Source: a bacterium | GTDB lineage: Bacteria; Oederibacteriota; CAKKQC01 | DNA length: 64,000 nucleotides | Direction of reading: 5' to 3' | Assembly (NCBI GenBank): GCA_919901855.1 | Contig: CAKKQC010000010.1 | Location: forward strand, 158,865-222,864 | In this document: piece after piece, positions 1,783-62,347 of the stretch | Numbering within the stretch: the stretch's first letter is position 1 | Layout of the letters: every line of letters begins with the position of its first letter | Program-made: the position numbers and the translations under genes | The notes under the pieces: generated by a model | Databases searched by the model: none | Told to the model about the DNA's origin: nothing | The model's input: the letters and a program-made list of their open reading frames with translations, nothing else

Positions 1783-2621
1783 GAAGTCCGGGGCCGTTGG
1801 TGGATACGCGGGCGGGCGACGGGACGCGGCGCGGATTCCTCAAGGCCGGTTTGGCCGCGCTGGCGGGGGGCTGGGCACTCCTCGTCCGGCCGGTGCGTGG
1901 CGCGGCCGCGTCAGAACCTGAGTCCCGAGCCGCAGAGGGTCTGCCGCGGTGGGGAATGGTCATCGACCTGGACCGTTGTACCGCGTGCCAGTCGTGCACG
2001 GCCGCCTGCGCGGTCGAGAACAACCAGAGCCTCGGCAGTGTTGCCGAGGCGGCCCGGGGACGGCTGAACCGGTGGATTCACATCGTGGCGGTCCCCGATG
2101 TCGGCGGAGAACGCGGCGGGGTCCGGCTGGTCCCGATTCCCTGCCAGCACTGCGAGAATCCTCCGTGCGTCAAGGTCTGTCCGACGTCCGCGACATACAT
2201 GAATCCCGAGGGGATCGTGGGGCAGGTCTATTCCCGGTGCATCGGATGCCGGTACTGCGTCAATGCGTGTCCATATACCTGCAAGTACTTCAACTGGAGC
2301 GAGCCCAAGTGGCCTGGAGACATGGCCGAATCCCATAATCCGGACGTGTCTCCGCGCGAGAAGGGCGTCGTGGAGAAGTGCCTGTTCTGCCACCACCGCC
2401 TCCAGCGGGCCCGGGACCGCGCCCGGGCCGAGGGCCGCAGGATCCGCGAGGCGGATTACGTCCCGGCTTGCGTGACCGCCTGCCCGACGGGCGCAATCGG
2501 GTTCGGCGATCTGAATGATCCGGAGAGCTCCGTGAGCCAGATGGCGGGCAGTCCGCGGGCCTTCCGTCTGCTGGAGGACCTGGGAACACGACCCAAGGTC
2601 GCATACCTGCGTGAGCGGTAA
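1779..2621 (+). CDS. Tat-exported 4Fe-4S subunit (PsrB/NrfC/DmsB-like) of the molybdopterin complex
   Basis: Electron-transfer subunit of 280 residues linking the molybdopterin subunit to the membrane NrfD subunit. The start ATG overlaps the upstream stop as ATGA. The N-terminus has a twin-arginine signal (TRRGFLKAG near residue 15, then a hydrophobic stretch). Ferredoxin-type Cys groups follow: CTACQSCTAAC, CQHCENPPCVKVCPTSA, CIGCRYCVNACPY, and CLFCHH paired with CVTACPTGA, enough for four cubane clusters as in PsrB/DmsB. Gene order Mo subunit - FeS - NrfD is the standard CISM order, and all three genes are tightly packed. The ORF is open far upstream in this frame, but that extension is a shadow of the neighbouring gene. 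Confidence 0.88.
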   Translation: MRSPGPLVDTRAGDGTRRGFLKAGLAALAGGWALLVRPVRGAAASEPESRAAEGLPRWGMVIDLDRCTACQSCTAACAVENNQSLGSVAEAARGRLNRWIHIVAVPDVGGERGGVRLVPIPCQHCENPPCVKVCPTSATYMNPEGIVGQVYSRCIGCRYCVNACPYTCKYFNWSEPKWPGDMAESHNPDVSPREKGVVEKCLFCHHRLQRARDRARAEGRRIREADYVPACVTACPTGAIGFGDLNDPESSVSQMAGSPRAFRLLEDLGTRPKVAYLRER

Positions 2622-2622
2622 G

Positions 2623-3945
2623 ATGACCGATCCCAGGGTCCTGGCCGCCGAGAAGGCCGCGATCGCGCCGCTCGAGTCGGCGCCCGGGCCTGGCGGGCTG
2701 GCTTTCGCGGGCGCGCTGGGCCTCCTGTTCGCCGGGGCGTTGGGGGCATGGGGCTGGCAGCTCCTGAACGGCCTCGAGGTGACCGGGCTCAACTCACCGG
2801 TGTTCTGGGGAGTTTACATCACCGACTTCGTGTTCTTTGTCGGGGTGAGCCACGCCGGGACCCTGATCTCGGCGATTCTCCGCATCACGGACGCACGATG
2901 GCGCACGCCCTACACGCGCATGGCGGAGATGATCACGATCGCCAGTCTGCCGTTCGCCGCCACGTGCGTGATCGTGGATCTCGGCAGGCCGGAACGCGCA
3001 TTGAACGTTATCCTGTACCCGCACCTCACCTCTCCGATTCTCTGGGATGTCGTGTGCATCTCGACGTACGTGACGTGCTCCTGCCTCTATTTCTACACCG
3101 CTCTGATCCCCGACCTGGCGTTCTGCCGGGACCGCTGGGCCACTCGGGCCGGCTGGCGGCACTGGCTGTACATGGTCGCCGCCCTGGAGTGGACCGATAC
3201 ACCCTTGCAGCGGCGGGTCCACAACCGGATCATGACCGGGATGTCCATCGCCCTGCTGGGGCTGGTAATCTCGGTGCACACCAACGTCGGGTTCATCTTC
3301 GGGATGACGATCAAGCCCGGCTGGCACACGGCGATCATCGGTCCCTATTTCGTGATCGGCGCCGCCCTGCAGGGCTTGGGTGGGCTGGGGCTGATCGGGG
3401 TCATCCTGCGGCGCGTCCTGCGTCTCGAGCCGTTCATCAACGAGCACCATCTCAATCAGCTCCGGCGGTTCACGATCGCCCTGATCTGTTTCTGGACCTA
3501 CTTCACCGTCGCGGAACTGCTCACGACCTATTACGGGGGCATTCCACCCGAAATGCTGGTGTTCTGGAGCAAGGTCACGGGGCCCTTCGCCTGGAGCTTC
3601 TGGGGCATGATCCTGGGCTGTGCCGTGATCCCGTTCATCCTCCTGGTGTTCCAGCCCGGCCGCCTCACGGCCATGCTCGCCTGGTCGGGTGCGTTGATCA
3701 ACATCGGCATGTGGCTGGAGCGCTACACCATCGTGGTGCCGACGGCGGCCAGTCCGTTCATTCACACCCTGGCTCGCAGCTACGTGCCGAGCTGGGTGGA
3801 GGTCATGATCAGCGTGGGGTGGCTGGCCGGGTTCGCCCTGCTCCTGGCGTCGTTCATGCGCGTGTTTCCGGTGCTCACCCTGTGGGAGTTGCGGGAGGAA
3901 GTCGAGGAAGAGCACGCCGCGGAGCACGGCGCACCGGAATCCTGA
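2623..3945 (+). CDS. nrfD: NrfD/PsrC-family membrane subunit (quinone-interacting)
   Basis: Polytopic integral membrane protein of about 440 residues with roughly ten hydrophobic segments. It belongs to the NrfD/PsrC family, which exchanges electrons between the FeS subunit and quinone. Family-like features include the stretch GVSHAGTLISAILRI early on and the WLERYTIVVPTA segment near the C-terminus. I chose ATG 2623, one base after the upstream stop; GTG 2611 is an in-frame alternative adding four residues and overlapping the FeS gene. The tail is acidic (EEVEEEH). It is the last gene of the three-gene run; the next gene is about 380 bp away. No haem ligands are expected, and the direction of electron flow cannot be read from sequence. 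Confidence 0.88.
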   Translation: MTDPRVLAAEKAAIAPLESAPGPGGLAFAGALGLLFAGALGAWGWQLLNGLEVTGLNSPVFWGVYITDFVFFVGVSHAGTLISAILRITDARWRTPYTRMAEMITIASLPFAATCVIVDLGRPERALNVILYPHLTSPILWDVVCISTYVTCSCLYFYTALIPDLAFCRDRWATRAGWRHWLYMVAALEWTDTPLQRRVHNRIMTGMSIALLGLVISVHTNVGFIFGMTIKPGWHTAIIGPYFVIGAALQGLGGLGLIGVILRRVLRLEPFINEHHLNQLRRFTIALICFWTYFTVAELLTTYYGGIPPEMLVFWSKVTGPFAWSFWGMILGCAVIPFILLVFQPGRLTAMLAWSGALINIGMWLERYTIVVPTAASPFIHTLARSYVPSWVEVMISVGWLAGFALLLASFMRVFPVLTLWELREEVEEEHAAEHGAPES

Positions 3946-51631: not shown

Positions 51632-53362
51632 ATGAGCAAGTACGCGACAGCGGGGAAGAAGATTCCGTCGGACATCGAGATCGCCCAGGCGGCGAAGCTG
51701 AAGCCGATCACGGAGATCGCGAGGAATCTCGGCGTCACGGAGGACGAGCTCGAACCGTACGGGAAGTACATGGCCAAGATCGACCTCTCGATCCTCGACC
51801 GGCTCAAGTCCCGTCCGAACGGCAAGTTCATCACCGTGACGGCCATCTCGCCGACCCCGCTCGGGGAGGGCAAGACGGTCTCCTCCTTCGGGATCGGCCA
51901 GGGCCTGGCCAAGATCGGGAAGAAGGTCGTGAACGCGACGCGGGAGCCGTCCAAGGGCCCTACGTTCGGGATCAAGGGCGGGGCCTGCGGCGGCGGCTAC
52001 TCCCAGATGCTCCCCATGGAGCAGATCAACCTCAACTTCACCGGGGACATCCATGCGGTCGAGACCGCGCACAACCTGTTCAACGCGGCCATGGACGCGA
52101 GCATCTGCCACGGGAACCCCCACCGCCTCGATCCGGTGAACATCAACCTGCGCCGGTGCATGGACCTCAACGACCGGGCCCTCCGGAACGTCGTGGTCGC
52201 GCTCGGCGGGAAGCTCAACGGGTACCCGCGCGAGACCGGTTTCGACATCACCGTGGCCTCCGAGACGTCGGCCGTCCTCGCGCTGGCCAACGACCTGCAG
52301 GATCTCAGAAAGCGGCTGGGGCGCATGATCTGCGGGTTCACGTACGACAGCAAGCCCGTCACGGCCGAGGACCTCAAGGTGGCCGGCGCGATGGCGGTCC
52401 TGCTCAAGGACGCGATCAAGCCCAACCTGATCCAGTCCACGGAGAACCACCCCGTGATCTGCCACGGGTTCCCGTTCGCGAACGTCGCGCACGGCAACAA
52501 CTCCGTGCTGGCCGACCGGATCGCGCTCAAGCTCGCGGACTACGTCGTGACCGAGAGCGGGTTCGGGGCGGACTGCGGGGCCGAGAAACTCTTCGACATC
52601 GTGTGCCGGCAGAGCGGGCTCGTCGTGGACTGCGCCGTGATCACGCTTTCCATCCGGGCGCTCAAGATGCACGGCGGGGCCTACGTGTTCCGGCCGGGCC
52701 AGAAGTACGACAAGGCGAACGCCGAGAAGATGAACCTGCCGGCGCTCGAGAAGGGGTGCGAGAACCTGCGCGTGCACATCGAGAACGTGCGCCAGTTCGG
52801 CATCCCCGTGGTCGTCACGATCAACCTCTTCAGCGCCGACCACGACGAGGAGATCGACTTCGTCCGCAAGTACGCGCTCGACCACGGGGCCGCGTTCGCG
52901 GTGCCCCTCGAGGCCTGGGCGCGGGGCGGGGACGGCTGCACGGAGGCCGCGGAGGCCATCGTCAAGGCCTGTGCGATGCCGAACACGTTCCACACGCTCT
53001 ATCCCGACGACATGACGATCAAGCAGAAGATCGAGACCATCGCCGCCAAGATCTACCGGGCGGAGGGCGTGGACTATTCGCCCCTCGCGGAGAAGAAGAT
53101 CAAGCTCTTCGAGGAGCTGGGGATGGGGAAGCTGTGCATCAACGTGGCCAAGACCCAGTACTCGCTCACGCACGACCCGAGCCTGCTCGGGGCGCCCCCG
53201 GCGCACTACCGCATTCCCGTGCGCGACGTCCGGTGCTCGGCCGGCGCGGGCTTCCTCTATCCCCTCCTGGGGGAGATGAACACGATGCCCGGGCTGCCCG
53301 CCAAGGCGGCCTACATGGACGTGGACATCGACGCGAACGGGAAGACCGTCGGGCTGTTCTAG
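51632..53362 (+). CDS. fhs: Formate-tetrahydrofolate ligase
   Basis: 576-residue ATP-dependent enzyme making 10-formyl-THF. ATG 51632 follows GAGGA. The P-loop is TPLGEGKTVSSFG; other family stretches are TREPSKGPTFGIKGGACGGG, NLNFTGDIHA, CHGFPFANVAHGNNS and TESGFGADCGAEKLFDIVCR. Length is slightly above the usual ~557. The last 76 bp are present a second time 1301 bp downstream, beyond an inserted ATPase gene, and the natural terminator stands after that second copy. Confidence 0.95.
   Translation: MSKYATAGKKIPSDIEIAQAAKLKPITEIARNLGVTEDELEPYGKYMAKIDLSILDRLKSRPNGKFITVTAISPTPLGEGKTVSSFGIGQGLAKIGKKVVNATREPSKGPTFGIKGGACGGGYSQMLPMEQINLNFTGDIHAVETAHNLFNAAMDASICHGNPHRLDPVNINLRRCMDLNDRALRNVVVALGGKLNGYPRETGFDITVASETSAVLALANDLQDLRKRLGRMICGFTYDSKPVTAEDLKVAGAMAVLLKDAIKPNLIQSTENHPVICHGFPFANVAHGNNSVLADRIALKLADYVVTESGFGADCGAEKLFDIVCRQSGLVVDCAVITLSIRALKMHGGAYVFRPGQKYDKANAEKMNLPALEKGCENLRVHIENVRQFGIPVVVTINLFSADHDEEIDFVRKYALDHGAAFAVPLEAWARGGDGCTEAAEAIVKACAMPNTFHTLYPDDMTIKQKIETIAAKIYRAEGVDYSPLAEKKIKLFEELGMGKLCINVAKTQYSLTHDPSLLGAPPAHYRIPVRDVRCSAGAGFLYPLLGEMNTMPGLPAKAAYMDVDIDANGKTVGLF
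53287..53362 (+). repeat. Direct repeat, left copy (3' end of formate-THF ligase)
   Basis: The last 76 bp of the ligase gene including its TAG stop. From base 53294 to the stop it is identical to 54595-54663 (69 of 69), with one mismatch in the seven bases before. This copy completes the functional gene. Confidence 0.95.
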
Positions 53363-53364
53363 CA

Positions 53365-53380
53365 GGGGACGTACGTCCCC
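53365..53380. repeat. Perfect 16-bp palindrome at the left junction
   Basis: GGGGACGTACGTCCCC starts 3 bp after the fhs stop and ends 3 bp before the ATPase gene's end. Its GGGGAC end is shared with the REP-like hairpin at 55321-55382. It may also terminate transcription from either side. Confidence 0.6.
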
Positions 53381-53382
53381 GC

Positions 53383-54519
53383 TCACCCCATGAGGGAGGG
53401 GACCGCGGAGGCCGGCAGCACGGCGATCGTGTTCGTTCCGAATCGCACCTTCGTCGGCCGGCGGACATCCTGGGCGACAACCGCCAGAACGGATCCCGGG
53501 TAGGCGCGGGCGAAGGACAGCATGCCGCCGGGGTTGAACTCGTGAGCCGACCATTTGCATTCGATGGCGATGGGCGGCCTGCCGTGACGCGGAACCACGA
53601 AATCGACTTCGTTTCCGTGCTTGTCGCGCCAATACGATACTTGGCGACTCTGGATGACGGCATGGATTTCGTTCAGCACCATGTGTTCCCACAGGATGCC
53701 CCGGTTCGCCGGCGTCACATGGCTCCATCCGTTGAAGTAGCTGACGAAGCCGGTGTCGAAGGAATACACCCTGGGGGCGGCGACGATTTCGATGGCCCGG
53801 CGCGAGTTGAACGGCCGCAGGACGTGCGCAACGTGCATGCCTTCGAGGATGGCGAGGTAATTCGTAATGGTCATGCGGTTCACCTCGCAGGGCCGTGAGA
53901 ACGTGGTCGCCTCGAAGATGGAGCCGCTCTGGTGCATGAGGAGCTCGACGAACTTCGCGAAGGGGCTCTTCTGCTGTATGCGGAACAGCTCTTCGACATC
54001 CCTCGCCCAGTAATCGTCCATCCACTCCCTGAAGAAGTCCTCGCGCAGCCTTGTTTGCAGGAAGAGCGGAGGAAGTCCTCCGAAGATCAGGCGATGCGAC
54101 AAAGTCCGGTGTCCGAAATCTCGCATATCCCGAAGGGTGATGGGGGTAAGCCGGATCGAGATCTTCCGTCCGGTGAGGGTGTCGCGGAACTTCCGGGAGG
54201 CTCCCAGTGTCGAGGAGCCTGTCGCAAGGATCTTGATCGCGGGATAGTGGTCTGCCGCGATCTTCAGCAGTTGAGACGGATTAGCGAGCTTCTGGATCTC
54301 GTCCAGCACGATGCGTGCCCGGCCGATGCCCGCGAGGAACCGCGTTGGGTCTTCCAGTCTCGACCGGATCTCCGGTAGCTCGCAGTCGTAGTAGCGGATG
54401 CCGGGGACGCTTCTCGACAGGTACGTCTTGCCGGCCCGACGGACTCCCGAGAGCCAGATCACCGTCCTGTCGCGCCACGCGGCCTCGATGAGGCTCAGCC
54501 AGTACCTGCGGATCGCCAT
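53383..54519 (-). CDS. AAA ATPase with C-terminal DUF4143 domain
   Basis: 378-residue protein of the AAA_14/DUF4143 class. The Walker A is GVRRAGKT (residues ~25-32) and the Walker B RIVLDEIQKL (~residues 86-95). The N-terminal ATPase half is followed by a winged-helix part (ITNYLAILEGMHVAHVLRPF) and a C-terminal nuclease-like fold (GNEVDFVVPRHGRPPIAIECKW, with Asp and Glu-X-Lys in PD-(D/E)XK order). The track-length start is TTG 54546; I chose ATG 54519, which lies about 7 bp after a TACAAT -10, so the mRNA may be leaderless. Codon use is less GC-rich than its neighbours. Such genes are widespread, patchily distributed and of unclear function. Confidence 0.85.
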   Translation of the reverse strand: MAIRRYWLSLIEAAWRDRTVIWLSGVRRAGKTYLSRSVPGIRYYDCELPEIRSRLEDPTRFLAGIGRARIVLDEIQKLANPSQLLKIAADHYPAIKILATGSSTLGASRKFRDTLTGRKISIRLTPITLRDMRDFGHRTLSHRLIFGGLPPLFLQTRLREDFFREWMDDYWARDVEELFRIQQKSPFAKFVELLMHQSGSIFEATTFSRPCEVNRMTITNYLAILEGMHVAHVLRPFNSRRAIEIVAAPRVYSFDTGFVSYFNGWSHVTPANRGILWEHMVLNEIHAVIQSRQVSYWRDKHGNEVDFVVPRHGRPPIAIECKWSAHEFNPGGMLSFARAYPGSVLAVVAQDVRRPTKVRFGTNTIAVLPASAVPSLMG

Positions 54520-54525
54520 GGACGT

Positions 54526-54571
54526 ATTGTAGCAGAGATGTACCAAACGCTAAAGTGTTAGCGTTTCGTAC
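54526..54571 (-). promoter_or_regulatory. Palindromic promoter/operator of the ATPase gene
   Basis: An inverted repeat with 14-bp arms (54540-54553 and 54558-54571, one mismatch, core AAACGCTAA/TTAGCGTTT) sits just upstream of a minus-strand TACAAT at 54526-54531. The arm would cover the -35 region, fitting autoregulation. Confidence 0.5.
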
Positions 54572-54587
54572 ACCCATGGCGCACCGC

Positions 54588-54663
54588 GCCCGGCCTGCCC
54601 GCCAAGGCGGCCTACATGGACGTGGACATCGACGCGAACGGGAAGACCGTCGGGCTGTTCTAG
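54588..54663 (+). repeat. Direct repeat, right copy (displaced fhs 3' end)
   Basis: Second copy of the final 76 bp of fhs, offset 1301 bp, still reading PGLPAKAAYMDVDIDANGKT to the same stop. It is followed by the hairpin terminator expected after fhs, so this is the original chromosomal end or a descendant of it. Confidence 0.95.
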
Positions 54664-54686
54664 AACAACAAGGTCCGCAGCGAAAC

Positions 54687-54722
54687 GGGGGGAGCGGCCA
54701 TCCGCTCCCCCCGTCGTTTTAT
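54687..54722 (+). terminator. Rho-independent terminator, originally of fhs
   Basis: Perfect 11-bp stem GGGGGGAGCGG (54687-54697), loop CCAT, CCGCTCCCCCC (54702-54712), then GTCGTTTTAT. It now lies 1.3 kb after the functional fhs stop. Confidence 0.85.
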
Positions 54723-55298: not shown

Positions 55299-55320
55299 CT
55301 GCGGTGCAGTTGAGGACGCC

Positions 55321-55382
55321 GGGGACGGTCTTTGCATCATCATTGGATCCTCCTCGAATTCAATGATCCAAAGACTGTCCCC
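55321..55382. repeat. REP-like imperfect hairpin A
   Basis: Imperfect inverted repeat with ~24-bp arms: GGGGACGGTCTTTG on the left pairs with CAAAGACTGTCCCC on the right, apart from a G.T and a mismatch. Related to hairpin B at 63097-63161: both contain GGGACAnTCTnTnGATCAT when read on the minus strand of the right arm. Such forms are typical of REP elements mobilised by REP-associated tyrosine transposases; none is in the window. Confidence 0.7.
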
Positions 55383-55526
55383 GCTCCCTGGCCCGATAAC
55401 GATCCGCTGTACGTTCGGCCGAATAGAACAGCGCAGAAAGGGTTCGGCAACAGAGACCAGGGGGTATCATGTAGAGACAATCGGCACCCAGTGCCGGAGC
55501 CACTCGAAAGGGGTGTCCTCGCAGAG

Positions 55527-57830
55527 ATGGACCAAGCCACGCAGAACCGCATCGTTTCGTTTGTATGGGGCATCGCTGATGATGTCCTGCGGGACCTCTT
55601 CAAGCGCGGCAAGTACCCCGACGTCATCCTGCCAATGTGCGTGTTGCGGCGCTTCGACGCGGTCCTGGAGCGGACCAAGGACGCCGTCCTCAAGGCCAAG
55701 GCCATGCTGGACAAGGCGAAGATCACGGAGCAACACGCGGCCCTTTGCGATGCCGCCAAGCAGTCTTTCTACAACACGTCGAAGTTCACCTTGCGGGACC
55801 TCAGGTCTCGCGGAAGCCAACAGCAACTCCGGGCGGACTTCGAGGATTACCTGAACGGCTTCTCGCCCAACGTCCAGGACATCCTGGAGAACTTCAAGTT
55901 CAGGAATCAGCTTCAGACGCTCTCCAAGGCCGATGCCCTCGGCACCCTGATCAACAAGTTCATGGACCCTGAGATTGACCTGAGTCCGACGGCCATCGAC
56001 AACCACGCGATGGGCACAATCTTCGAGGAACTGGTCAGGCGCTTCAACGAGGAGAATAACGAGGAAGCCGGCGAGCACTGGACGCCCCGCGACGCCGTGC
56101 GCCTGATGGCGAACCTGGTCTTCATGCCCGTTGCCGGCCAGTTCAAGTCCGGTTCCTACCTGCTCTACGACTGCGCATGCGGAACGGGCGGCATGCTCAC
56201 AGTCGCTGAGGAGACTCTCCAGGAGATCGCCACCAAGCGGAAGCTCAAGATCAGGACCCATCTCTACGGGCAGGAGATCAACCCCGAAACATACGCCGTC
56301 TGCAAGGCGGACATGTTGCTCAAGGGGGAGGGCGACAACGCGAACCATATCGTCGGGGGAGCCGAATGGTCCACGCTCTCGCACGACGCGTATCCGGCCC
56401 GGGAGTTCGACTTCATGCTGTCGAATCCCCCCTACGGTAAGAGCTGGAAGAAGGACCTGGAGACCATGGGCGGGAAGGATGACATGCGCGACCCTCGCTT
56501 CACGGTCATGCACAAGGACAAGGAACTGTCGCTGGTAACCCGCACCAGCGACGGACAGATGCTCTTCCTCGCCAACATGGCCGCGAAGATGAACAGCAAA
56601 TCGGCGCTGGGCAGCCGAATCGCCGAGGTTCACAATGGTTCATCGCTCTTCACCGGTGATGCCGGCCAGGGTGAGAGCAACATTCGACGGTGGCTGATCG
56701 AGAACGACTGGCTCGAGGCCATCGTTGCACTGCCGCTCAACCTCTTCTACAACACCGGCATCGCCACCTACGTCTGGGTGCTGTCCAACAGGAAGCCCGC
56801 GCACCGCAAGGGCCGTGTTCAGCTCATCGACGCGAGCCAGTGGTTCAAGCCACTGCGCAAGAACCTCGGCAAAAAGAACTGCGAGCTCTCGCCTGAGGAC
56901 ATTGAGCGCATCAGCCGCACCTTCCTCGAGTTCAAGGAGACCCCGGAGTCCAAGATTTTCCCCAACGCCGCCTTTGGCTACTGGAAGGTCGCGGTCGAGC
57001 GACCGCTCCGTCTGCACAGCCAGCTTACGCTCAAGGTCATCGAGACGCTACGCTTCAACTCGGGCGACGAGGACATTCGCGCCTCGCTCTACGAGGAGTT
57101 TGGCGACAACCTCCTCACCAAGTTCGCCAAGATATCATCCAAGCTGGAGAAGCTTCTGGCTGTCTGGGGCAATGACGAGGACGAAGGTGACGACGAGGAA
57201 GGCGGTGGTACGAAGAAGGGCCTGTCCGAAAAGAAGCGCAAGAAGCTCCTGGATCCCAAGACCTGGGAGCGGGACGGGCGCCTGGTTGAAGTGGCCACGA
57301 AGCTGCGGGCGGCGCTGGGCGACACGCTCTTCGAGGACCACAACCTCTTCCGCGACCGCGTGGACGGCGCGCTCGAGAAGGCCGACATCAGGCTCGCGGC
57401 CGCCGACTTGAAGCAGATCCTCAGGGCCGTGAGCTGGCGCGTCGAGACCGCTGCGCCAGTCATCGCCACGGTGTACAAGCCCGGCAAGGCGAAAGCCGAC
57501 CCGCTTCGCGGCCTCTTCGAGGCGACCGTGGACGGCAAGCCCGCGGTCGTCGAGTACGAGCCCGACTCCGACCTGCGCGACACAGAGCAGGTGCCCCTCC
57601 TCGAGGACGGGGGCATCGAGGCCTTCATCCGCCGCGAGGTGCTGCCCTACACGCCCGATGCGTGGATCAAGGAAGACGCTACCAGGATCGGCTACGAGGT
57701 GAGCTTCACGCGGCACTTCTACAAGCCTCAGCCGCTGCGCACGCTGGAGGAGATCAGCGCCGACATCCTCGTCATCGAGAAGGAAGCCGAGGGTCTGCTG
57801 GATGGCCTGCTGAAGGCTGGTGGCAAGTGA
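55527..57830 (+). CDS. hsdM: Type I restriction-modification system, DNA methyltransferase subunit
   Basis: 767-residue N6-adenine methyltransferase. ATG 55527 gives the usual N-terminal HsdM helical domain (NRIVSFVWGIADDVLRDLF, YPDVILPMCVLRRFD). The SAM motif is DCACGTGGML near residue 214 and the catalytic motif SNPPYGKSW near residue 298. A C-terminal extension of about 200 residues, including an acidic stretch (NDEDEGDDEEGGG), makes it longer than the ~530-residue classical HsdM and is common in one HsdM subclass. The open frame upstream to 55332 runs through hairpin A and is not coding. Confidence 0.93.
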   Translation: MDQATQNRIVSFVWGIADDVLRDLFKRGKYPDVILPMCVLRRFDAVLERTKDAVLKAKAMLDKAKITEQHAALCDAAKQSFYNTSKFTLRDLRSRGSQQQLRADFEDYLNGFSPNVQDILENFKFRNQLQTLSKADALGTLINKFMDPEIDLSPTAIDNHAMGTIFEELVRRFNEENNEEAGEHWTPRDAVRLMANLVFMPVAGQFKSGSYLLYDCACGTGGMLTVAEETLQEIATKRKLKIRTHLYGQEINPETYAVCKADMLLKGEGDNANHIVGGAEWSTLSHDAYPAREFDFMLSNPPYGKSWKKDLETMGGKDDMRDPRFTVMHKDKELSLVTRTSDGQMLFLANMAAKMNSKSALGSRIAEVHNGSSLFTGDAGQGESNIRRWLIENDWLEAIVALPLNLFYNTGIATYVWVLSNRKPAHRKGRVQLIDASQWFKPLRKNLGKKNCELSPEDIERISRTFLEFKETPESKIFPNAAFGYWKVAVERPLRLHSQLTLKVIETLRFNSGDEDIRASLYEEFGDNLLTKFAKISSKLEKLLAVWGNDEDEGDDEEGGGTKKGLSEKKRKKLLDPKTWERDGRLVEVATKLRAALGDTLFEDHNLFRDRVDGALEKADIRLAAADLKQILRAVSWRVETAAPVIATVYKPGKAKADPLRGLFEATVDGKPAVVEYEPDSDLRDTEQVPLLEDGGIEAFIRREVLPYTPDAWIKEDATRIGYEVSFTRHFYKPQPLRTLEEISADILVIEKEAEGLLDGLLKAGGK

Positions 57831-57919
57831 AAGCCACCGAAGCCAAACTGCTGAGTTTCCTCCAGTACGCTAATCCTACGAGCGCGACATGGGCGACGGA
57901 GGTGAGGCGTGATCGCTGA
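57827..57919 (+). pseudogene. Remnant of a DUF262 (GmrSD-like) gene start
   Basis: A 30-codon frame overlapping the hsdM stop reads MKATEAKLLSFLQ from a GTG start. That is the characteristic beginning of DUF262-domain proteins, which normally continues with a QFVIPIYQR-type block. Here it runs into unrelated residues and stops inside hsdS. It looks like the scar of a lost gene between hsdM and hsdS, where such genes often sit in type I systems. Assignment rests on one short match. Confidence 0.5.
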
Positions 57920-59327
57920 CCTCAAGCCGTACGCAGAATACATGGAGTCGGGGCTGCCGTGGCTCGGACAAGTGCCGGAGCATTGGGAGATGCGACCCGC
58001 GTTTGGTGCCTATGTGCCGAACCACGAGCGCAACCAAGGCATGAAAGAGAAGACCGTTCTTTCGCTCAGCTTCGGGCGCATTGTCATCAAGTCGGCGGAT
58101 AAGCTGCATGGCCTTGTCCCCGAGTCATTCGAGACCTACCAAGTCGTCAATCCGGGCGACATTGTCCTTCGGACTACGGATCTCCAGAACGATCACAGGA
58201 GCTTGCGTGTGGGGATGGTGCGAGACCGCGGAATCATCACCTCTGCCTACCTAGCTTTGCGAGCGAATGCAGGAGTTGGACCGGACTTCGGATTCCAGTT
58301 CCTCAATGTCTGGGACACCAGCAAGGCCATTTATGGCTACGGGTCCGGCCTACGCCAGAACCTGGACTTCTCGCACTTCAAGAGAATGCCTGTCGCAGTC
58401 CCCCCGCCTGCTGAGCAGGCGGCGATTGTGCGGTTTCTGGACTGGGCAAACGGGCGGCTGGAGCGTGCAATCCAGGCGAAACGGAAGGTGATCGCGCTTC
58501 TCAACGAGCAGAAGCAGGCTATCATCCACCGGGCCGTCACCCGCGGCCTCGACCCTTCCGTTCCCCTCAAACCCTTCGGCATCCCCTGGCTTGGGGAGGT
58601 CCCAGCGCGTTGGGAGGTGCGGCCCTTGAAGGCCGTGTGTGAGATACAGTCGGGCATCACTCTCGGAAAGGACTACTCCGGACAACCTACTCAAGAGTAT
58701 CCATATCTCCGGGTCGCAAACGTTCAGGCTGGTCACGCCCATCTCGCAGTTGTCAAGACCATTCGCGTCACGAAGGCGGAGGCCCTACGCTGCACGCTGC
58801 ATGCCGGCGATGTCCTAATGACCGAAGGCGGCGATCCTGATAAGCTTGGGCGTGGCTGCGTATGGAATGCCCAAGTCGCTCCTTGCTTACATCAAAATCA
58901 CGTCTTTGCCGTTCGCCCCGATCAGTCGAAGCTTCTTCCGGATTACCTCTCCGCACTTATGGGGACGCGATACGCCAGGGCCTATTTCGAATCTACGGCC
59001 AAGCAGACCACTAATCTCGCGGCAACCAACAGGACGAAGATCGGACAGTTCCAGGTGCTGCTGCCGACGGTCGATGAGCAACAGAGAATACTTTCAGCCC
59101 TCAGTTACGAGACCGGCCCCGTGATTGCCGCCATCTCCCGCCTCGAACGCGAGATCGAACTCCTTCGCGAATACCGAATCCGTCTCGTCGCCGATGTCGT
59201 GACCGGCAAGCTCGATGTGAGAGAGGCGGCGTCGCGGTTGCCCGTCGAGGCGCCGCCTGACTCGGTCGAGGACGACACTGCCCAGAACGACGATCTTGAG
59301 GACGCTGGCGAGGAGGCCGCCGCATGA
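57909..59327 (+). CDS. hsdS: Type I restriction-modification system, specificity subunit
   Basis: 472-residue DNA-recognition subunit with two target-recognition domains. Each begins with a PWLG.VP..WE block (SGLPWLGQVPEHWEMRP at residue ~15 and PFGIPWLGEVPARWEVRP at ~residue 220) and ends with a helical spacer (EQAAIVRFLDWANGRLE and EQQRILSALSYETGPV). GTG 57909 follows GGAGGTGAGG. The acidic tail (EDDTAQNDDLEDAGEE) is odd but harmless. It overlaps hsdR (ATGA). Confidence 0.92.
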   Translation: MIADLKPYAEYMESGLPWLGQVPEHWEMRPAFGAYVPNHERNQGMKEKTVLSLSFGRIVIKSADKLHGLVPESFETYQVVNPGDIVLRTTDLQNDHRSLRVGMVRDRGIITSAYLALRANAGVGPDFGFQFLNVWDTSKAIYGYGSGLRQNLDFSHFKRMPVAVPPPAEQAAIVRFLDWANGRLERAIQAKRKVIALLNEQKQAIIHRAVTRGLDPSVPLKPFGIPWLGEVPARWEVRPLKAVCEIQSGITLGKDYSGQPTQEYPYLRVANVQAGHAHLAVVKTIRVTKAEALRCTLHAGDVLMTEGGDPDKLGRGCVWNAQVAPCLHQNHVFAVRPDQSKLLPDYLSALMGTRYARAYFESTAKQTTNLAATNRTKIGQFQVLLPTVDEQQRILSALSYETGPVIAAISRLEREIELLREYRIRLVADVVTGKLDVREAASRLPVEAPPDSVEDDTAQNDDLEDAGEEAAA

Positions 59328-62300
59328 CCACTGACACCAGCGAGAAGGGCCTCGAGACGCTGATCATGCGCCAGATGACTGGTGAAGATGGTCTCGCAGT
59401 GTCGTCGGGATTCACGGTAGCCGAGCCCTCGCCTCCCTACGGTGGCACCGGCTATCGGGCCGGCTCTGCGAAGGACTACGACCGGGCTCAGGCTGTGGAC
59501 GTGGCGCAGTTGTTCGCATTCCTCAGGTCCAGCCAGCCCGACGCGTTCAAGAAGCTCGCCATGGCCAACGAGCAAGATCCCCAGGACATCAATCGCCTCA
59601 AGTACCTCTCCCGCCTGTCGAGTGAGATCGGGAAACGCGGGGTCATCGACGTGTTGCGGAAGGGGGTGGAGCACGGCCCGGTGCACTTCGAGCTCTTCTA
59701 TGGCACTCCTTCCCCCGGAAACGCCAAGTCCATGGAGTTGTTCGCCAAGAATCGTTTCTCGGTCACCCGGCAACTGGCTTTCAGTCTGGATGAAACTCGG
59801 CGGGCCCTGGACCTCTGCCTCTTCATCAACGGTCTGCCCATTGCGACCTTCGAGTTGAAGAACAGCCTGACCAAACAGACGGTTGAGGATGCCGTCGAGC
59901 AATACCGGCGCGACCGTGATCCACGCGAGCGGCTCTTCGGCTTCGGCCGTTGCGTTGTGCATTTGGCCGTCGACGATGTCGAGGTCCGGATGTGCACGGA
60001 ACTCAAGGGCAAGCCATCCTGGTTCCTACCCTTCAACAAGGGCTGGAACGACGGGGCCGGGAACCCGCCCAACCCCAACGGCCTCAAGACCGATTACCTC
60101 TGGAAGGTGCTCCTCACTCCCGCAGGGCTGACGGACATCCTGGAGAAGTACGCCCAGATCGTCGAGATCGAAGACCAGAAGACGGGCAGGAAGAAGCGCG
60201 TCCAGGTATTCCCGCGCTATCACCAGCTATCCGTCGTGCGACAGGCTCTCGCCCATGTGGCGGAGCACGGAGTGGGGAAGAGGTACCTGATCCAGCATTC
60301 GGCCGGGAGCGGCAAGTCCAACTCCATCGCCTGGCTGGCTCACCAGCTCATCGGCATGAAGCGCGCGGGGAAGGAGATCTTTGACTCGGTGGTCGTGGTC
60401 ACCGACCGCCGCATTCTGGACGCCCAGATTCAGAAGACCATCAAGCAGTACATGCAGGTCAGCGCCACCGTCGGCCATGCGGAGCATTCGGGCGATCTCC
60501 GCAGTTTCATCGAGGAAGGCAAGAAGATCATCATCTCCACGGTCCAGAAGTTCCCGTTCATCCTCGACGAGATCCACAGGGACGGCCAGGATCGGACCTT
60601 CGCCATCATCATCGATGAGGCCCACTCCAGCCAGGGCGGGAAGACTTCCTCGGCCGTGAGCGCGGCCCTGGCCGATGAGGGCGATCCCGAGGACAAGGTC
60701 AACGATGAACTCGAGAAACGCATCGCCGCCCGGAAGATGCTCACCAACGCCAGCTACTTTGCGTTCACGGCGACGCCCAAGCACAAGACTCTCGAGATGT
60801 TCGGCGAGCCCCTGCCGCCAGACGCCGAAGGCAAGGTGAAACACAAGCCGTTTCACAGCTACACCATGAAGCAAGCCATCAAGGAGGGCTTCATCCTCGA
60901 CGTGCTCGAGAGCTATACCCCGGTGGAGAGCTACTACAAGCTCGTGAAGACGATCGAGGGGGATCCCGAGTATGACACCAGGAAGGCGCAGAAGAAGCTG
61001 CGCCGATACGTCGAGAGCCATGACTACGCCATCCGGCTCAAGGCCGAGATCATGGTGGACCACTTCCACGAGCAGGTCATGGCCCTGAACAAGATCGGCG
61101 GACAAGCGAGGGCCATGATCGTCTGTTCCGGGATCGAGCGGGCCGTCCAGTACTTCCATGCCTTCAAGGAGTACCTGGCGGAACGAAAGAGTCCGTACAG
61201 GGCCATCGTCGCGTTCTCCGACGAGCATGAGTACAAGGGGATGAAGGTCAGCGAGTCCTCCTTGAACGGCTTCTCGAGCGGGGACATCGCGGACAAGATC
61301 CAGCAGGATCCCTATCGGTTCCTGATTTGCGCGGACAAGTTCCAGACCGGCTACGACGAGCCGCTACTCCACACGATGTACGTGGACAAGATCCTCTCCG
61401 GCGTGAAGGCCGTCCAGACCCTCTCGCGCCTGAACCGCGCGCATCCGCAGAAGCACGACGTATTCGTCCTGGATTTCATGAACAGGGCGGACACCATCAT
61501 CGAGGCGTTTGCCGACTACTACCGCACGACCGTCCTGAGCGAAGAGACGGACCCCAACAAACTGCACGACCTGAAGGCCGCCCTGGACGGTGCGCAGGTC
61601 TACACAGCCGAACAAGTGGAAGCCCTCGTATCCCTCTACCTGACCGGCGCGGATCGCGACAAGCTCGATCCGATCCTGGATGCCTGCGTCGCGATCTACA
61701 GGGAGAAACTCGACGAGACCGGGCAGGTCGAGTTCAAGGGCAAGGCCAAGGCGTTCACCCGCACCTACAACTTCCTCGCCTCGGTCCTGCCGTACGCGAA
61801 TCGGGACTGGGAGAAGCTTTCCATCTTCCTGACCTTCCTGGTCCCGAAGCTCCCTGCACCCAAGGAAGAGGACCTCGCCAGGGGCATCCTCGAAGCCATC
61901 GACATGGACAGCTACCGGGCCGAGAAGAAGGCCACGCTGAAGATCAGCTTGCCGGATGCCGACGCCGAGATTGACCCCGTGCCGACCAGCGGTCTGACCC
62001 GAAAGATAGAACCCGAGCTGGACCGGCTCAGCAACATCCTGAAGACCTTCAACGACCAGTTCGGGACGCTGTTCACCGACTCCGACCGGGTGGCCAAGCG
62101 CATCAAGGACGAGATCGCTCCGATGGTGGCCGCCGACCAGGGCTACCAGAACGCCCGCGCCAACACGCCCAACGCGGCCCGGATCGAGCTCGACCGTGCC
62201 CTGGGCCGCGTGATGCTCGGCCTGCTCAAGGACGACACCGAGGTCTACAAGCAGTTCTCCGAGAACGAGTCCTTCAAGCGCTTCGTCACGGACATGGTCT

Positions 62301-62347
62301 ACGATCTGACCTCGGAGGCCGGCCCAGCTACTCCAGCGCCCCAGTAG
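59324..62347 (+). CDS. hsdR: Type I restriction-modification system, restriction/translocation subunit
   Basis: 1007-residue motor nuclease. The N-terminal nuclease region carries the PD-(D/E)XK core FELKNSLTK (residue ~173). The helicase part has Walker A HSAGSGKSNS (~residue 325), Walker B IIIDEAHSSQGG (~429), the SAT-like FAFTATPKHKT and motif VI region QTLSRLNRAHP. Length is normal. ATG 59324 overlaps the hsdS stop. All three subunits look intact, so the system is probably active. Confidence 0.95.
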   Translation: MTTDTSEKGLETLIMRQMTGEDGLAVSSGFTVAEPSPPYGGTGYRAGSAKDYDRAQAVDVAQLFAFLRSSQPDAFKKLAMANEQDPQDINRLKYLSRLSSEIGKRGVIDVLRKGVEHGPVHFELFYGTPSPGNAKSMELFAKNRFSVTRQLAFSLDETRRALDLCLFINGLPIATFELKNSLTKQTVEDAVEQYRRDRDPRERLFGFGRCVVHLAVDDVEVRMCTELKGKPSWFLPFNKGWNDGAGNPPNPNGLKTDYLWKVLLTPAGLTDILEKYAQIVEIEDQKTGRKKRVQVFPRYHQLSVVRQALAHVAEHGVGKRYLIQHSAGSGKSNSIAWLAHQLIGMKRAGKEIFDSVVVVTDRRILDAQIQKTIKQYMQVSATVGHAEHSGDLRSFIEEGKKIIISTVQKFPFILDEIHRDGQDRTFAIIIDEAHSSQGGKTSSAVSAALADEGDPEDKVNDELEKRIAARKMLTNASYFAFTATPKHKTLEMFGEPLPPDAEGKVKHKPFHSYTMKQAIKEGFILDVLESYTPVESYYKLVKTIEGDPEYDTRKAQKKLRRYVESHDYAIRLKAEIMVDHFHEQVMALNKIGGQARAMIVCSGIERAVQYFHAFKEYLAERKSPYRAIVAFSDEHEYKGMKVSESSLNGFSSGDIADKIQQDPYRFLICADKFQTGYDEPLLHTMYVDKILSGVKAVQTLSRLNRAHPQKHDVFVLDFMNRADTIIEAFADYYRTTVLSEETDPNKLHDLKAALDGAQVYTAEQVEALVSLYLTGADRDKLDPILDACVAIYREKLDETGQVEFKGKAKAFTRTYNFLASVLPYANRDWEKLSIFLTFLVPKLPAPKEEDLARGILEAIDMDSYRAEKKATLKISLPDADAEIDPVPTSGLTRKIEPELDRLSNILKTFNDQFGTLFTDSDRVAKRIKDEIAPMVAADQGYQNARANTPNAARIELDRALGRVMLGLLKDDTEVYKQFSENESFKRFVTDMVYDLTSEAGPATPAPQ

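Follow-up and report, generated by a model that had tools for sequence, protein, structure and literature searches.

The stretch of DNA analysed here, referred to below as the window, comprises 64,000 nucleotides of contig CAKKQC010000010.1 (assembly GCA_919901855.1, positions 158,865 to 222,864 of the forward strand) from a bacterium of the Oederibacteriota lineage, whose draft genome amounts to 4.68 Mb in 91 contigs. In the window, fhs, the gene for formate-tetrahydrofolate ligase, is followed by a gene for a DUF4143 ATPase, and the end of fhs is present on both sides of the ATPase gene. The features of the locus, in window coordinates, are:

51632-53362, plus strand: fhs, formate-tetrahydrofolate ligase, the host (target) gene; 576 aa, intact, full-length match to PF01268 (FTHFS) with E 3.5e-239
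53287-53362, plus strand: gene-end copy 1, the final 76 bp of complete fhs, including the TAG stop codon
53365-53380, no strand: perfect 16-bp palindrome GGGGACGTACGTCCCC between the convergent fhs and ATPase stops, without a T run
53383-54519, minus strand: gene for an AAA_14-DUF4143 ATPase/PD-(D/E)XK-type nuclease of 378 aa, PADLOC candidate defence PDC-S01
54539-54572, no strand: palindromic, operator-like promoter element upstream of the ATPase start, a 14/15-bp inverted repeat TGTACCAAACGCTAA...TTAGCGTTTCGTACA
54588-54663, plus strand: gene-end copy 2, the displaced fhs end including its stop codon, 75/76 identical to copy 1
54685-54714, plus strand: terminator-like hairpin of 13 pairs followed by the T tail CGTTTTATAG, 3' of copy 2

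A preliminary description of the locus had claimed that the last 76 bp of fhs occur twice, 1301 bp apart, with 69 bp identical and the differences at the inner edge of the repeat. Re-measurement upheld each of these points. The start-to-start distance between the copies is 1301 bp, 75 of the 76 positions agree, and, because the sole mismatch (G at 53293, C at 54594) lies at the inner edge, no difference remains in the final 69 bp, which run through the stop codon. An exact 69-mer pair has a chance expectation of about 3e-29. The perfect palindrome, the minus-strand ATPase gene with its own palindromic promoter, and the strong terminator beyond the second copy, all part of the same description, were also recovered at the coordinates listed. 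The insert contains one gene, and neither open reading frame translations nor a domain search revealed a transposase or integrase between the copies, as had been stated. No terminal inverted repeats were found; the repeats at this and the other loci described below are variable in length (30-255 bp), unlike the short, fixed target duplication of a transposon or insertion sequence. The GC content of the insert is 62%, versus 68% for the window. The hairpin at 54685-54714 is probably the original fhs terminator, while GGGGACGTACGTCCCC, which did not occur a second time in 0.8 Mb of the same genome, is a possible hairpin shared by fhs and the ATPase gene. Twenty more distant fhs loci, none of them from a close relative, had one gene end each within the flanks examined.

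The ATPase matches PF13173 and PF13635 (67.3 and 105.6 bits, both above the cut-off), the two matches covering most of the protein, and also matches the PADLOC PDC-S01 models (E 1e-53). A PDB sequence search with this protein gave no match. In an alignment of 12 relatives, the Walker A motif GxRRxGKT, the Walker B residues DE and the EVD...ECK residues were invariant, the positions being G30-K31-T32, D73-E74, E304, D306, E320 and K322. These motif residues agree with PMC12988326, where PDC-S01 is described as a fusion of an ATPase with a PD-(D/E)XK member, ranked fourth in frequency among prokaryotic defences and said to have been transferred between domains on multiple occasions. On sequence grounds, the window ATPase is a candidate single-gene defence or selfish gene with a putative antiviral role.

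The palindrome AAACGCTAA overlaps the presumed ATPase promoter, and a similar element stands at a similar upstream distance in ATPase relatives from other phyla, which suggests that the ATPase may repress its own gene through it. The form ACYAAAYGC...GCRTTTRGT was seen at window 54539-54572 and upstream of the DUF4143 genes at four other loci (L103, L104, L131 and L134). An association of AAACGCTAA with flanking duplicated gene ends, raised in the preliminary description, did not hold: the palindrome is not tied to duplication.

Type I restriction-modification genes (HsdM-, HsdS- and HsdR-like, assigned by eye) lie at window 55332-62347, about 0.7 kb past the second fhs end. With such genes nearby, the fhs locus may be a place where defence genes tend to land.

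Duplicated gene ends around DUF4143 genes

The genome that holds the window contains about 18 DUF4143 genes, and the flanks of each were compared. Two further genes were found to sit between duplicated gene ends. At the first (L054, contig C60), the end of a URO-D-like gene, APSAEPITIPLTPDLEARYRAYLDSGLRWGST, is followed by the ATPase gene and then by APSAEPITIPLTPDLEARYRTYLDAGLRWGR; the two ends share a 48-bp identical core, and their remaining differences fall almost only at third codon positions and are mostly synonymous. At the second (L059, contig C6), the duplicated end belongs to a zinc-ribbon gene and the copies read CDAQYALTDGVCSTCGDIPLVRFEDSAPLIA and CDSQYALTDGVCSTCGDIPLVRFSDGGTEGGPQPV. 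A weaker case of the same kind is present on contig C38 (L058). When 0.94 Mb of the genome was scanned for short repeat pairs (at least 84% identity, 0.5-4.5 kb apart), the only other pair outside tandem-paralogue arrays (L091) consisted of hairpins resembling repetitive extragenic palindromes (REP-like) and was therefore rejected as a gene end. Such hairpins, with GGGGAC...GTCCCC ends, recur in the genome (window 55318-55382; L091 14809-14886 and 16028-16105), some of them 3' of gene ends. DUF4143 genes of this genome also occur in clusters, six in about 10 kb (L050, C70 1-13506) and three in about 4 kb (L051, C71 1-11003), and intergenic repeats such as TGCCCCGAGAATCTTAAAATCT recur in the C71 cluster. 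The clusters look array-like, yet their repeats are not tied to gene ends, and an integron array was rejected.

The comparison was extended to relatives from 45 genomes of the phylum, from other phyla, and from plasmids and viral contigs. The end of an adenylate cyclase-like gene is duplicated around a DUF4143 gene over 255 bp at 98% identity, finishing exactly at the stop codon (L113). DUF4143 genes were also found between duplicated ends of an EmrE-like gene (L122), a DUF1016 gene (L103), a TPR gene in a Melainabacteria contig (L131), uvrC (L144, a short repeat), ygiQ (L148), a Fic gene (L169) and, on plasmid pBSY17_2 (L307), a tyrosine recombinase gene. The last is the one plasmid locus out of 12 with a gene-end repeat; one viral contig (L285), with a repeat of only 32 bp, is perhaps a further case. 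No recombinase was found within the units, and the target genes are unrelated from locus to locus.

Under strict criteria (repeats of at most 300 bp and at least 80% identity, near the gene), short flanking repeats were present around 17 of 82 DUF4143 genes and 11 of 486 other open reading frames (Fisher p = 6e-9). Two of the 11 control positives were in fact DUF4143 genes missed by the filter, and six came from tandem-paralogue arrays. Flanking duplication is thus far commoner around DUF4143 genes than around other genes, and the earlier proposal that a duplicated gene end marks an insertion is supported. Gene ends account for only some of the 17 strict cases: some of the repeats do not lie in coding sequence, and REP-like palindromes make up a few of them (L172, L181). 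Hidden tRNA ends were considered as targets at loci with non-coding repeats, and no tRNA was present in 15 loci.

Other cargo and movement between strains

The same architecture was observed around genes of other kinds. Two control loci with PIN/VapC genes have VapBC modules between duplicated gene ends, one of them at nuoN (L204, 193 bp, 91% identity; the other is L195). At the end of a cyclase gene (family f7), three states were found. In genome G028 the site is empty, with a DedA-like gene directly next to the cyclase gene. In G020 (L254, reverse complement 1959-3254), an acyltransferase-like gene lies between the cyclase gene and a decayed, frameshifted cyclase end, so that the gene-end architecture here holds cargo unrelated to defence. 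G032 carries two cassettes in a row, one with DUF4143 and one with Phd/PIN, and three cyclase ends; the Phd-like/PIN toxin-antitoxin pair (L253, 3651-4387) lies directly behind the DUF4143 cassette and is followed by the third cyclase end, which is the more diverged. Since the cyclase end is empty, singly or doubly occupied in the three genomes, we conclude that one gene end can take several unrelated cassettes.

Movement of a DUF4143 gene at the level of strains was seen in Thermus thermophilus, a naturally competent species. On megaplasmids of different strains, a 1.3-kb DUF4143 cassette, 96% identical, is present at two different loci. It follows pxpA in SNM3-3, JL-18 and SG0.5JP17-16, and is missing from that place in HB8 and HC11. 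In HB27, it adjoins a fragment of an aldehyde ferredoxin oxidoreductase gene and bears a remnant of the clustered regularly interspaced short palindromic repeat (CRISPR) that adjoins the pxpA copy: on pTT27 (L312, 4280-4330), the cassette ends in the interrupted CRISPR repeat GGTCCATCCCCA-ACCTTC-ACGTGCGTGGG. We read this remnant as the trace of a former place beside an array. These placements show that the single gene has moved, taking along a piece of captured flank and encoding no transposase itself.

Divergence of the paired ends and proposed mechanism of insertion

The differences between paired ends were counted by codon position over 11 pairs, including the two that bracket VapBC modules (L204 and L195). 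Positions 1, 2 and 3 differed 58, 27 and 94 times, respectively, and a uniform expectation was rejected (p = 7e-9). Reading frames and stop codons were kept in the paired ends. With frames and stops kept and differences concentrated at third positions, both diverged ends would therefore have evolved as working gene ends, one of them arriving with the cassette; at several diverged loci, it is as if the cassette had introduced the gene end in the form that it has in another lineage. Replacement of a gene end is also supported by a comparison of the EmrE-like gene of G003 with that of its congener G026, which are 86% identical in DNA upstream and 71% at the end. At the amino acid level, the displaced fragment matches the congener at 37 of 43 positions and the end of the complete gene at 32 of 43, as would be expected if the fragment were the native end. 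The URO-D-like and zinc-ribbon genes, tried as further tests of which end is native, had no close orthologue.

On balance, we lean towards an account in which recombination anchored in the end of a host gene brought in a defence or selfish gene and left the target whole. According to this account, the 1.3-kb piece at 53363-54587 would be an inserted single-gene cassette with the DUF4143 (PDC-S01) ATPase-nuclease as its passenger, and host homologous recombination anchored in the conserved gene end would have placed it at the 3' end of fhs. The incoming DNA would have carried a short copy of the host gene end, either as a small circle or as a linear fragment bounded by two copies, and crossing-over on either side of the cassette would have fallen within the identical core. 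The product would be a complete gene with its last codons beside the cassette, then the passenger, and then the resident end, displaced but still followed by its terminator. Such inserts would survive because the target gene stays whole, and the passenger may be kept by defence or addiction. The account covers joining from existing copies of a gene end, not the origin of the very first duplication.

Several observations weigh against this account or are equally well explained without it. Selection on the complete gene alone would yield part of the third-position bias. In the G003/G026 comparison, both ends are 71% identical to G026 at the DNA level, and for nuoN (G008 versus G021) the complete gene is closer to the relative than the fragment is. 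At fhs itself, a foreign allele cannot be discerned because the ends are 75/76 identical, and plain duplication fits equally; the earlier suggestion of an element that arrives with a gene-end copy of its own gains support from the allele-like pairs at diverged loci and none from the locus for which it was made. About 80% of DUF4143 genes have no flanking repeat, nor do 11 of the 12 plasmid loci at E 1e-3. The mobility seen in T. thermophilus shows no gene-end duplication, and neither a free circle nor an intermediate of recombination was observed.

The near-identical pairs, 75/76 at fhs and 98% over 255 bp at L113, are what would be expected if the gene end were instead duplicated in place, a widely staggered break or strand-switching repair having copied 40-250 bp of the host's gene end during insertion, with copies that start identical and then drift. 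This process would resemble the restriction-modification insertions reported from Helicobacter pylori genome comparison (PMC1643837, PMC3874152). We regard it as the main alternative, though the less probable one: diverged pairs that keep frame and stop, mainly synonymous changes, and the identical core at L054 are unexpected for an unused, drifting fragment. Insertion driven by the DUF4143 protein itself appears unlikely. Here, the PD-(D/E)XK nuclease would cut conserved gene ends and the ATPase would handle the ends, in the manner of a homing endonuclease, and both the strong enrichment of flanking repeats around DUF4143 genes and the invariance of nuclease residues D306, E320 and K322 and of the Walker motifs in the 12 proteins, several of which are from gene-end loci, are in line with such activity. 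The same architecture is found, however, at VapBC modules (L204, L195, L253) and around an acyltransferase gene, most DUF4143 genes are without duplication, and the targets differ each time. Homing to one gene was rejected: none of the relatives that share 50-61% identity with the window ATPase is located at fhs, and the host gene is a different one in every gene-end case. With targets that vary in this way and VapBC modules that share the architecture, the units are not a dedicated, self-encoded gene-end transposon, and the preliminary description's mobile cassette with a gene-end target is not supported in the sense of a dedicated cassette with a fixed target.

REP-like and tandem repeats are present in the genome, and the fhs end could have been duplicated earlier by an unrelated event, with the ATPase gene inserted later, or could be the remnant of a tandem paralogue. 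Such a coincidence would be needed at about a dozen unrelated host genes of DUF4143 cassettes, and is rare in controls, which makes this explanation highly improbable. Least probable of all is an assembly artefact or chance repeat. Apart from the draft state of the 91-contig genome, nothing was found in its favour; against it stand the 69 identical bases, the single mismatch, and many independent parallels in other assemblies, one of which is a complete plasmid. An artefact is very unlikely also in view of the shortness of the repeat, the 223-kb length of the contig and the recurrence of the architecture at many independent loci.

Relation to known systems and significance

The preliminary description held that a mobile cassette with a gene-end target would be new; the process is not wholly so. 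For restriction-modification genes, insertion accompanied by a long target duplication is known from PMC1643837 and PMC3874152, which cite Nobusato 2000. The likeness is considerable: in both cases, a small unit without a transposase is flanked by long direct target repeats of variable length, on the order of 100 bp, the insertions are seen by genome comparison, and they are tied to selfish or defence genes. Here, in contrast, the passenger is a single DUF4143 ATPase-nuclease gene, some of the pairs are diverged alleles, not fresh copies, and cassettes can stack. The duplicated target here is often specifically a protein-coding 3' end with its stop codon.

The minimal mobile elements of Neisseria are cassettes that replace one another between conserved genes through transformation and homologous recombination, with restriction-modification genes as frequent cargo. 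The present units are like them in having no mobility genes and in their proposed exchange through conserved flanking genes, and the cyclase locus, where G032 and G020 carry unlike cassettes and G028 carries none, may be a comparable case of alternative cassettes; the two flanks of a minimal mobile element are, however, different genes, whereas here one gene end is duplicated on both sides. Integrative elements at gene 3' ends (tRNA genes, guaA and others) use a site-specific integrase and have one target per element family. They likewise regenerate the target end and displace the resident end; in the present case there is no integrase and the targets vary. As to PDC-S01, whose PADLOC models the window ATPase matches, no route of movement of solitary DUF4143/PDC-S01 genes is described in the literature found, including the available part of PMC12988326. 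What is new is the kind of passenger, the association with the 3' ends of genes, the divergence within some pairs of ends, the way cassettes can stack, and the wide range of bacteria involved.

The gene-end signature is a sequence mark for insertions of this kind, and makes a little-tested idea from restriction-modification systems searchable genome-wide. The architecture houses VapBC modules as well. If the paired ends were indeed imported, the last codons of housekeeping genes would be replaced by foreign ones as a side effect; if, instead, the nuclease drove insertion, an abundant candidate defence gene would be mobile without a transposase and would restore the end of whichever gene it inserted into. 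The recurrence of duplicated gene ends suggests a route into genomes for a candidate defence gene that is among the commonest and carries no transposase.

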